Origin: Acidaminococcus timonensis
GTDB lineage: Bacteria; Bacillota; Negativicutes; Acidaminococcales; Acidaminococcaceae
Direction: 5' to 3'
DNA length: 64,000 bases
Assembly (NCBI RefSeq): GCF_900106585.1
Contig: NZ_FNWH01000005.1
Coordinates: 187,962 to 251,961, forward strand
Part shown: piece by piece, positions 19,797-22,979 of the stretch
Layout: every line of letters begins with the position of its first letter
Position numbering within the stretch: position 1 is the stretch's first letter
Program-made: the position numbers and the translations under genes
Notes under the pieces: model-generated
What the model was told of the DNA's origin: nothing
Seen by the model: the letters and a program-made list of their open reading frames with translations, nothing else
Database searches by the model: none

Positions 19797-19809
19797 GCCA
19801 ATTGGCCTT

Positions 19810-19882
19810 TGGGGTGAGTCCAAAATACAGGATCGTGTAAGTACGAAAAGAAATGATTATTGGGGTGAGTCCAAAATACAGG
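19810..19882 (+). repeat. Two 22-bp direct repeats, 51-bp period
   Basis: TGGGGTGAGTCCAAAATACAGG occurs exactly at 19810-19831 and 19861-19882. A related string, TTGGGGTAAGCTCCAA, lies at 19986-20001 within the left end of the insertion sequence. They may be remnants of mobile-element ends or protein-binding sites. Confidence 0.8.
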
Positions 19883-20018: not shown

Positions 20019-20053
20019 GACGTGAGCGATTTTTGCTCACGTCTGTTTTTATT
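20019..20053 (+). terminator. Hairpin at the left end of the IS
   Basis: GACGTGAGC (20019-20027) pairs with GCTCACGTC (20035-20043) and is followed by TGTTTTTATTTT on the plus strand. It would block host transcription from entering the transposase gene in antisense. Confidence 0.75.
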
Positions 20054-21242
20054 TTAATTTCACCATCGAAAGCAGTAAAATCCGAGAACGGAATCGTTCA
20101 AAGTTGCGAAAACCAAATGCTACTCTCTTTAACACCTTAATCTTATTGTTCATTCCTTCCGTAAAACCATTCGAATACGCTTGACTCAATCCTTCCAAAA
20201 TCTCTGTCTTCCAATCAGTGAACGTCTTTATAACACTCTTGAATTCTTCAACCCCACTTTCTTCGACTAATGATAACCAACGAGATAAGAATGAAGCAAC
20301 AGCAGACCGTTCTTTCATAGAAAACACCTTAAAGAATGCCTCTTTTAAGGCATAGGCTCTCTGTAATTCTGAAGACTGCTTCAAGATTTCCCGAAGGCTG
20401 GCCAGTTCTTCTTCTGTCAGACGATCACCCCTCTTGTTCAAGATATGTTTGTTTCTCTTGAAATAAATTCTTTTTTCGTCGAATAACTTTTGTACATTTT
20501 TCCTAACCCGTTCAAGCGCCCAAATGACCAGTCTCTGTATGTGGAATCGGTCACCAATAATTGTTGCACCAGGAAACATCGCTCTGATGACCTTGCGGAA
20601 AAGTGACGAAAGGTCCATTACGACAAATTTTACTTTCAATCGCTCTGCTCTTGAAAATTGGCTAAAATAACGAATCAATTCCAGCGCTGTCCTCTTTGGC
20701 AAAATATCGAGAGTTTCATGACGCTGAGGGTCATTCACAGCGACCTGGTATCTTTGCCCATGAGCGTTCCCACGAAATTCGTCTAAAGAAAGAACTTCAG
20801 GCAGATGGAGAGGCCTTTTAAAAGTAAGTCCATCAAAATACCGGATTACGGTGGAAACAGAGACACCATGGCTTCTGGCAATAGCTTTAAAGCTCGCCAG
20901 TTCAGAACAGGCTTGGATGATGCTGTTCTTTACATCGTTAGAACGCCGCTGGTAATGCTCGACGCCAGGAATTTTTTCATAAAATGTCTTATGGCAGCAA
21001 GGGCAAAAAAATCTTCTTTTATGAACAATAGCAGAAACAGGATGGGTGTTCCAGTGCCCTAAGAGGACTTTTTGGTCCCGATAGTCCTTAATATGAAGAA
21101 TTTTATGATGACAGTAGGGGCAACGAGAAGCTGTAGAAGTGAATTCCACGTAAAGGAGGAGGCTGGATCCCAATTTTTCAAATTCTTTTATGGAACCCTC
21201 TTCCCAATGGAAGCTTTTTTCGATAAAATGAAAGAAAGACAT
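20049..21242 (-). CDS. ISL3-family transposase
   Basis: A 397-residue DDE transposase. The N-terminal zinc-binding region has CPYCHHK and, later, CPCCHKTF. An HTH-like segment (ASFKAIARSHGVSVSTVIRYF) follows. The catalytic triad is visible in SLDEFRG (first Asp), FVVMDLSSLF and GDRFHIQRL (second Asp region) and NGFTEGMNNKIKVLKR (Glu). The ATG at 21242 follows AAAGGAG; an in-frame extension upstream crosses the terminal hairpin and is unlikely. The frame appears intact, so the element may be active. Confidence 0.93.
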   Translation of the reverse strand: MSFFHFIEKSFHWEEGSIKEFEKLGSSLLLYVEFTSTASRCPYCHHKILHIKDYRDQKVLLGHWNTHPVSAIVHKRRFFCPCCHKTFYEKIPGVEHYQRRSNDVKNSIIQACSELASFKAIARSHGVSVSTVIRYFDGLTFKRPLHLPEVLSLDEFRGNAHGQRYQVAVNDPQRHETLDILPKRTALELIRYFSQFSRAERLKVKFVVMDLSSLFRKVIRAMFPGATIIGDRFHIQRLVIWALERVRKNVQKLFDEKRIYFKRNKHILNKRGDRLTEEELASLREILKQSSELQRAYALKEAFFKVFSMKERSAVASFLSRWLSLVEESGVEEFKSVIKTFTDWKTEILEGLSQAYSNGFTEGMNNKIKVLKRVAFGFRNFERFRSRILLLSMVKLK

Positions 21243-21391
21243 ATCTATTCTCCTTTCAGTTCTTCGTGGTGGTTGAGGTGAAATGTAGCTTAGATATGTC
21301 TTTATTTTATCGTAAGACAAGGGGTCTTGTGAACAGGAGTGTCCACAAGACCCCAACATTTATTATAGAACCTTATTTTACTGCGTTGTAC

Positions 21392-21420
21392 TTGCATTTT
21401 ATTGTTACACACGTTACAAT
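21392..21420 (+). promoter_or_regulatory. hydG promoter with overlapping Rex-like operator
   Basis: TTGCAT (21392-21397), a 17-base spacer and TACAAT (21415-21420) make a good promoter. Across the spacer and -10 lies TTGTTACACACGTTACAA (21402-21419), an 18-bp imperfect palindrome. It resembles the TTGTTAA-N4-TTAACAA consensus of the redox repressor Rex, differing at three of fourteen specified positions. Rex commonly controls hydrogen and fermentation genes in anaerobes. The assignment is inference. Confidence 0.6.
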
Positions 21421-21430
21421 ACACATAATA

Positions 21431-21540
21431 TGCTCCCTGCGTACAAGGTTTACCGCGTACTAAGGCAGTACCGATCCAACAAAGACATCCTTGGAGGGAG
21501 CTGCGCCCAAAACGGGCGGCAGCTCCTTTTTTCTAGGGGG
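21431..21540 (+). promoter_or_regulatory. hydG leader with attenuator-type terminator
   Basis: Between the promoter and the gene lies a terminator: GGGAGCTGCGCCC (21496-21508) pairs with GGGCGGCAGCTCC (21514-21526), with TTTTTT after it. Upstream, GCTCCCT (21432-21438) is complementary to AGGGAGC (21495-21501), which forms the 5' arm of the terminator, and could act as an antiterminator. No gene reads into this terminator on the plus strand, so it most likely controls hydG itself. I recognise no known riboswitch class. Confidence 0.55.
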
Positions 21541-21557
21541 AGCAAAGGGGAGGAAAA

Positions 21558-22979
21558 ATGACCATACCGTACAATCCGGCATCACCGAAAGCGGACGAAT
21601 TCATCAACCATCAGGAAATCCTGGACACCCTGACTTTTGCTGATGAAAAGAGCAAAGACATGGCCTACTGCCAGAGCCTGCTGGAAAAAGCCCGCACCCT
21701 GAAGGGTCTGAGCCACCGGGAAGCCTCCGTGCTCCTGGCCTGCGAAGATCCCGCCATCCTGGAAGGCATCTACGACCTGGCCAAAGAAATCAAGGACAAA
21801 ATCTACGGCCAGCGCATCGTCCTGTTTGCCCCTCTGTACCTGTCCAACTACTGCGTCAACGGCTGTGTGTACTGTCCCTACCACCAGAAGAACAAACACA
21901 TTGCTCGGAAAAAGCTGACCCAGGAAGAAATCAAGAAGGAAGTCATTGCCCTGCAGGATATGGGCCACAAACGACTGGCCCTGGAAGCCGGTGAAGACCC
22001 GGTGAACAACCCCATCGAGTACATCCTGGAATGCATCCACACCATCTATAGCATCAAACACAAAAACGGTGCCATCCGCCGGGTAAACGTGAACATCGCC
22101 GCCACCACTGTGGAAAACTACCGGAAGCTGAAGGAAGCCGGCATCGGCACCTACATCCTTTTCCAGGAAACCTACCACAGGGAAAACTATGAAAAGCTCC
22201 ATCCCAATGGTCCGAAACATGACTATGCCTACCATACGGAAGCCATGGACCGGGCCATGGAAGGCGGCATCGATGACGTGGGCGTAGGGGTACTGTTCGG
22301 ACTGAACATGTACCGGTACGACTTTGCCGGCCTGCTGATGCACAAGGAACACCTGGAAGCCGTATTCGGCGTAGGCCCCCACACCATCAGCGTACCCCGG
22401 ATCCGCCCTGCCGATGACATTTCCGTCAAGTCCTTCCCCAACGCCATCAGTGATGACATGTTCAAGAAGATCGTGGCCATCCTGCGGATCACCGTGCCCT
22501 ACACCGGGATCATCATTTCCACCCGGGAAAGCGCTGCCACCCGGAAAGCCGTGCTGGACGTGGGCGTTTCCCAGATCAGTGGGGCTTCCCGTACCAGTGT
22601 GGGCGGCTATGCAGAAGAGGAAGAGGAAGATTCTGCCCAGTTCGAAGTCAACGACAACCGGACCCTGGATCAGGTGATCAACTGGCTGCTCACCGACGGG
22701 TACATCCCCAGCTTCTGCACCGCCTGCTACCGGGCAGGCCGTACCGGGGACCGGTTCATGAGCCTGGCCAAGACCGGAGAAATCTCCAACTGCTGCCAGC
22801 CCAATGCGCTCCTGACCCTGCGGGAATACCTGGATGACTATGCCAGCGAAGATACAAAGAAAAAAGGCATGGAAGCCATCAAACGGGAACTGAATCACAT
22901 CAAGAGCCCGGTGGTCCGTGCCACCTGCGAAGGCTACCTGGAAAAGATCGATCAGGGGGAACGGGATTTCCGTTTCTGA
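21558..22979 (+). CDS. hydG: [FeFe]-hydrogenase maturase HydG (radical SAM tyrosine lyase)
   Basis: HydG cleaves tyrosine to make the CO and cyanide ligands of the hydrogenase H-cluster. The 473-residue product has the radical SAM cluster Cys99, Cys103 and Cys106 (CVNGCVYC, spacing C-x3-C-x2-C). It also has the C-terminal auxiliary cluster motif beginning CTACYRAGRTGDRF and ending SNCC, the C-x2-C-x22-C pattern that separates HydG from ThiH. GGGGAGG precedes the ATG. HydE, HydF and the hydrogenase itself are not in this window. A strong terminator follows. Confidence 0.96.
   Translation: MTIPYNPASPKADEFINHQEILDTLTFADEKSKDMAYCQSLLEKARTLKGLSHREASVLLACEDPAILEGIYDLAKEIKDKIYGQRIVLFAPLYLSNYCVNGCVYCPYHQKNKHIARKKLTQEEIKKEVIALQDMGHKRLALEAGEDPVNNPIEYILECIHTIYSIKHKNGAIRRVNVNIAATTVENYRKLKEAGIGTYILFQETYHRENYEKLHPNGPKHDYAYHTEAMDRAMEGGIDDVGVGVLFGLNMYRYDFAGLLMHKEHLEAVFGVGPHTISVPRIRPADDISVKSFPNAISDDMFKKIVAILRITVPYTGIIISTRESAATRKAVLDVGVSQISGASRTSVGGYAEEEEEDSAQFEVNDNRTLDQVINWLLTDGYIPSFCTACYRAGRTGDRFMSLAKTGEISNCCQPNALLTLREYLDDYASEDTKKKGMEAIKRELNHIKSPVVRATCEGYLEKIDQGERDFRF

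Follow-up and report, generated by a model that had tools for sequence, protein, structure and literature searches.

What decides whether transcription reaches hydG, the gene for a radical SAM maturase of the hydrogenase H-cluster, when a strong terminator stands between its promoter and its start codon? The question is raised by a 64-kb window (the whole stretch of DNA analysed here), which is part of an Acidaminococcus genome and carries a hydG with 94% identity to its A. fermentans counterpart. To our knowledge, it is poorly understood how cells adjust their supply of the hydrogenase H-cluster to the demand. With five matches to the [FeFe] hydrogenase large-subunit domain in the genome, the maturase has clients. 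The gene and its nearest signals are the following.

21558 to 22979, plus strand: hydG, H-cluster radical SAM maturase (TIGR03955, E 6e-273)
21546 to 21553, plus strand: ribosome-binding site of hydG, AGGGGAGG, read from the sequence
21392 to 21397, plus strand: -35 box TTGCAT of the hydG promoter (TTGNNN is kept in nine aligned upstream regions)
21415 to 21420, plus strand: -10 box TACAAT (TACAAT, TATAAT, TAAAAT or TAGAAT across the nine species)

The two promoter boxes are 17 bp apart in the window, and their position places the probable transcription start at about 21428-21432, just upstream of 21432. The upstream neighbour of hydG is a minus-strand ISL3 transposase, which agrees with the initial annotation in that the terminator ends no upstream gene on the plus strand. 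This ISL3-family transposase (20049-21242, minus strand) separates the upstream gene from the hydG promoter. The relatives have no copy at this place, which gives it the look of an insertion specific to the strain; it lies a few tens of bases 5' of the -35 box. Near its end, at 21321-21354, there is a 15-bp inverted repeat. In addition, the repeat TTGGGGTGAGTCCAAAATACAG is present twice, in tandem, at about 19808-19880 of the window and also occurs upstream of hydG in A. fermentans (L002) and in G001 (L003), which supports an insertion of the element between this repeat and hydG. A TM1266-family gene is present in all nine Acidaminococcus genomes, but it does not adjoin hydG; it is located beside ABC-transporter genes (L148, G000:C6:762500-770500), unlike in the sister genera, where it lies directly 5' of hydG.

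The initial annotation had recommended an alignment of hydG upstream regions from relatives, and this comparison revealed a conserved hairpin at the predicted 5' end of the transcript in nine Acidaminococcus species.

21432 to 21469, plus strand: 5'-end hairpin, GCU-C-CCU-GC-GUAC-AA-GG-loop-CC-GC-GUAC-UA-AGG-C-AGU (alignment A1, covariance model R1)

The hairpin, which the annotation had missed as a conserved unit, is 38 nt long in the window and scores 60.7 bits with R1. It is almost invariant among the nine species: 26 of the 42 alignment columns do not change, and the flanking DNA has otherwise diverged. Directly after the -10 box, the nine hydG upstream regions share the block GCTCCCTGC[GA]TAC[AG]AGG-n4-6-CC[GA]NGTA[CT]TAAGGC, which folds into one long irregular hairpin whose 4-bp helix is flanked on both sides by 2x2 internal loops. 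The 111-nt leader of the window folds better than all of 200 shuffled versions (z -4.0). In G002, a G-C has become an A-U through changes on both sides of the 4-bp helix, and the loop differs in length by 2 nt; covariation within Acidaminococcus is thin, with this one compensatory pair and nine of 12 pairs that never vary. R1 detects one copy per genome in all nine Acidaminococcus genomes, always before hydG, and no convincing second copy in these genomes, in 59 genomes of the family or in 380 of the class; the [FeFe] hydrogenase loci examined carry no copy of the leader. Separately, at least 14 low-scoring R1 matches, most of equal score, are scattered through one Acidaminococcus genome (G006:C1, e.g. 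228489-228512); they resemble a dispersed repeat that includes a part of the GUAC hairpin.

Downstream of the hairpin, the leader contains the elements of a possible transcriptional switch.

21496 to 21532, plus strand: intrinsic terminator (stem 21496-21526, T-run 21527-21532; -24.8 kcal/mol)
21432 to 21438, plus strand: GCUCCCU, the 5' strand of the outer stem and candidate antiterminator strand, exact complement of 21495-21501
21495 to 21501, plus strand: AGGGAGC, base of the 5' arm of the terminator, complementary to 21432-21438

Both the strong terminator before hydG and the exact complementarity between the upstream 7-mer and its 5' arm had been recognised in the initial annotation and are borne out here. 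A terminator is found between the hairpin and the start codon in all nine species, 30-61 nt before the ATG, and no second promoter is visible between the two in any of them. As the terminator lies past the only conserved promoter, with none visible after it, hydG must be reached by read-through. Taken together with the hairpin, this makes it very probable that the hydG leader is a conserved leader RNA with a premature terminator.

The 7-mer complementarity on its own is weakly significant, with a complement of the same length in 177 of 5000 shuffled leaders (3.5%). When transcripts ending after the 5' arm of the terminator were folded, the predicted antiterminator broke the outer stem of the hairpin in every one of the nine species, through the 5' strand of the hairpin in five of them and, in the other four, through the 3' strand. 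In the A. fermentans clade, the 5' strand GCUCCC pairs with GGGAGC, and in the A. intestini clade it is the 3' strand AAGGCAGUGAA that pairs with UUUGCAUGCCUU and its variants. The significance of the antiterminator in any single species is weak, with shuffled linkers matching its gain in 2-28% of trials. The terminator/antiterminator switch proposed earlier is thus upheld in kind, by the terminators of all nine species and the alternative pairings, but its particular 7-mer pairing is restricted to the A. fermentans clade. Judged on these folds and alignments, an antiterminator switch is likely.

These features suggest that the hydG leader is likely to be a cis-acting transcription attenuator. 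RNA polymerase would start just upstream of 21432, and the first ~40 nt would fold into the conserved irregular hairpin, with its two small internal loops around the 4-bp helix. When the hairpin is held folded, presumably by an effector, the downstream terminator would form and hydG would not be transcribed, while opening of the hairpin would allow one strand of its outer stem to pair with the 5' arm of the terminator and lead to read-through into hydG. A closed hairpin should favour termination because the antiterminator uses up an outer strand of the hairpin, so that the formed hairpin is rather likely to correspond to the OFF state. At the sequence level, the proposal is backed by the conservation of the hairpin next to the promoter, by the terminator, by predicted pairings that exclude each other and by the association with the gene. 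Candidates for the effector, whose existence and nature we infer, are metabolites and proteins with a link to H-cluster assembly, such as the protein TM1266.

A hairpin of the same geometry is found before hydG, hydE or a TM1266-family gene in many other Bacillota. Before hydG outside Acidaminococcus, where it often stands just before the ribosome-binding site, it takes the form CU-RA-YNNN-RA-AG-loop-CU-GA-NNNR-NA-AG. Carriers outside the genus include the sister genera, Clostridia and MAGs labelled Spirochaetes and Deltaproteobacteria. Hairpins at the ribosome-binding site of hydG in MAGs labelled Spirochaetaceae or Deltaproteobacteria (L068, L070, L072, L088, L090, L091, L093, L096) imply either that the element is old or that it has spread horizontally with hydG. 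In copies at the ribosome-binding site, the outer strand on the 3' side touches or overlaps the Shine-Dalgarno sequence, again suggestive of OFF for the closed hairpin.

The pairing of this hairpin was assessed with a pattern defined by sequence only, which required no pairing when 96 hydG upstream regions outside Acidaminococcus were searched. It gave 42 matches, 39 of which have a perfect 3-bp stem, as compared to a permutation mean of 26.7, and none of 10000 permutations was as high; the background (1.19 Mb) yielded 149 matches of the same pattern, eight with the stem. The element is lacking in 56 of the 96 regions. In the combined alignment A3, 97.5% of the cells are paired and the covariation score is 0.594, against 0.207 (sd 0.026) in shuffles, where part of the sequences of A2 and A3 had been picked with the 3-bp stem required, which inflates the pairing counts; the sequence-only pattern test in the 96 regions is the only one free of pairing-based selection. 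With a covariance model trained without Acidaminococcus (R2), all ten matches above 30 bits in 398 genomes of the phylum precede hydG (seven) or hydE (three, with the identity of hydE confirmed), and those below 30 bits are mixed, several of them not before hyd genes. The E-values of the covariance models are rough owing to short calibration. The joint model that includes Acidaminococcus (R3) finds copies outside its training set at the head of operons led by hydE (L038, L040, L052, L089) or by a TM1266-family gene (L042, L046, L047, L051, L062, L084).

A terminator of their own lies downstream of all ten operon-head copies examined, and counting also three hydE leaders, the distance is 9-65 nt, mostly 21-59 nt. 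At twelve representative loci, the hairpin strands pair with the arm of their own terminator at a mean of -10.5 kcal/mol and with those of other leaders at -8.1 kcal/mol; none of 5000 permutations was as good for all representatives, and p is ~0.001 without Acidaminococcus. Of all the evidence, this matching speaks most strongly for an alternative pairing that has a function and is not accidental. One locus (L069) has two copies of the hairpin for a single hydG, at 2774-2804 and 2946-2976: one, brought to light by R3, is adjacent to a TATAAT and followed by a terminator, and the other is at the ribosome-binding site.

What might hold the hairpin closed is addressed by two readings. Attenuation by a bound protein, with a putative RNA-binding protein of the hyd system holding the hairpin and setting termination, is a serious contender that falls a little short of an even chance. 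The element is small and consists of a hairpin only, and its confident matches are tied to hydG, hydE and TM1266, not to general SAM, tyrosine or iron genes; candidate binders are the TM1266-family protein, whose own gene is preceded by the element in several genomes and which every Acidaminococcus genome encodes, although away from hydG, as well as HydG and HydF. RNA binding by TM1266, HydG or HydF is assumed here, CsrA is absent, and the single NusG-type gene leaves no LoaP-like paralogue. Tentatively, the leader may instead represent a new class of riboswitch, one that would respond to a metabolite of H-cluster assembly or to some related signal by feedback on the expression of hydG, hydE and TM1266 in Bacillota and other anaerobes. 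Depending on the species, it would act on termination or at the ribosome-binding site.

Other regulators were considered and rejected. The motif GUACAAGG resembles the CsrA consensus, and control by CsrA was rejected because the genome encodes no CsrA (the controls were positive). Processive antitermination by LoaP was set aside as each genome gives one NusG-type match and no second gene of the NusG family. A tyrosine-rich leader peptide (in the window, ATG CTC CCT GCG TAC AAG GTT TAC...) was rejected since the relatives lack the start codon, and also by an in-frame TAA in G002.

Whether the Acidaminococcus hairpin belongs to the wider hyd leader family bears on how far the attenuator can be generalised. 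Its core has the family geometry.

21437 to 21464, plus strand: core with family geometry (CU / 2x2 loop / 4 bp / 2x2 loop / inner pairs / AG)

The Acidaminococcus hairpin has the complete arrangement (CU / 2x2 loop / 4 bp / 2x2 loop / inner pairs / loop / AG). It stands ahead of hydG, a gene of H-cluster maturation, in nine of nine genomes, and is followed by a terminator matched to its own element, as in the operon-head copies. On this comparison of sequences and predicted folds, it is quite probably a member of the family. Convergence of a genus-specific attenuator on the widespread hyd hairpin would account for the failure of R2 to give any match at the Acidaminococcus leader up to E 10, and for the helix GUAC and the loop GC/UA, where CGGG and GA/NA are the most frequent versions. 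On its 3' side, the second internal loop is usually GA in the family; five of the nine Acidaminococcus species have GA, the A. intestini clade has AA, and the window copy, with GC, is off at one conserved base. Convergence is nevertheless unlikely, given that the geometry is identical and the genes are the same, and that a pattern built from the invariant positions outside Acidaminococcus matches five of the nine Acidaminococcus leaders and occurs only five times in 1.6 Mb of background. Furthermore, hydE leaders from another Bacillota genus (L166-L168) combine the family hairpin with a CCU/AGG outer stem as in Acidaminococcus and with a terminator downstream, and in L166 the hairpin begins 7-8 nt after a TATAAT, the same place at the promoter. 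Including Acidaminococcus in the model also lifts untrained operon-head copies, as R3 raises L038 from 14.5 to 27.1 bits and alone finds L051, L084 and L046.

It is improbable that hydG is unregulated, with a constitutive leader and a leaky terminator, or with a small RNA gene that ends at the terminator. Such a view would fit the alternative pairings of single species, which are not far above shuffles, but two Acidaminococcus clades and no fewer than ten other loci have both a terminator and an alternative pairing, differing in sequence and in each case matched to the element of that leader. Very unlikely, in turn, is a DNA operator at the start site in place of an RNA structure: the strong conservation of primary sequence over 38 bp at this site and the palindromic GUAC would be expected of one, but on inspection of the sequence the arm lengths fit only hairpin pairing and not two DNA half repeats, the loop of G002 departs by 2 nt, and the wider family shows covariation and loops of varying length.

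The remaining explanation, put forward in the initial annotation, is a Rex operator at the promoter that ties hydG to the NADH/NAD ratio.

21402 to 21419, plus strand: 18-bp imperfect palindrome TTGTTACACACGTTACAA, the proposed Rex operator (10/14 to the Rex consensus of PMC6391272)

The palindrome does overlap the hydG promoter as described, and Rex has hydG among its targets in Caldicellulosiruptor bescii (PMC6391272). Rex control of the window's hydG is almost certainly wrong, short of a non-homologous protein that reads the same site: no Rex gene was found in its genome (family models PF06971 and NF003995) or in nine Acidaminococcus genomes (NF003995; control genomes positive), a finding that the annotation had itself named as refuting its proposal, its score is reached by 35 sites in the 64-kb window, and a TTGTGAANNNNTTCACAA-like palindrome is not conserved in the relatives, decaying within the genus, unlike the -35 and -10 boxes, which are retained. 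The palindrome is best read as the promoter spacer plus part of the -10 box.

The annotation had recognised no known riboswitch and suspected a new RNA element; consistent with this, no family of Rfam 15, be it T-box, SAM, THF or any other, gave a match to the window leader or to the elements of its relatives, and the element extends further than suspected, to many Bacillota and to MAGs of other groups. No paper on RNA control of H-cluster maturation genes was found, in a search that left most subscription journals outside, and the main texts of the structured-RNA papers examined do not contain hydG or hydE; the hyd hairpin family is seemingly undescribed so far. If the element is common to hydG, hydE and TM1266 operons across anaerobes, it would offer a direct handle on the control of H-cluster supply. 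It would also supply a compact, short and testable candidate for a new class of sensor, and is an example of one conserved domain that is wired to terminators differently in neighbouring species.

Among known systems, the Rex system of C. bescii (PMC6391272) likewise regulates hydG at the promoter region, whereas Acidaminococcus has no Rex gene. The ribonucleic antiterminator of LicT/BglG is another parallel, being a small irregular hairpin with internal loops that is mutually exclusive with a terminator, but the Acidaminococcus hairpin lies ~25 nt (98 nt in one species) before its terminator and does not overlap it, and no regulator of this type was identified for the Acidaminococcus leader. 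Compared to riboswitches, the hyd element is only 30-40 nt long, consists of a hairpin only and matches no Rfam family; it nevertheless resembles them as a kind, as a single conserved RNA domain placed ahead of metabolically related genes, with two outputs, a terminator/antiterminator and a position at the Shine-Dalgarno sequence.
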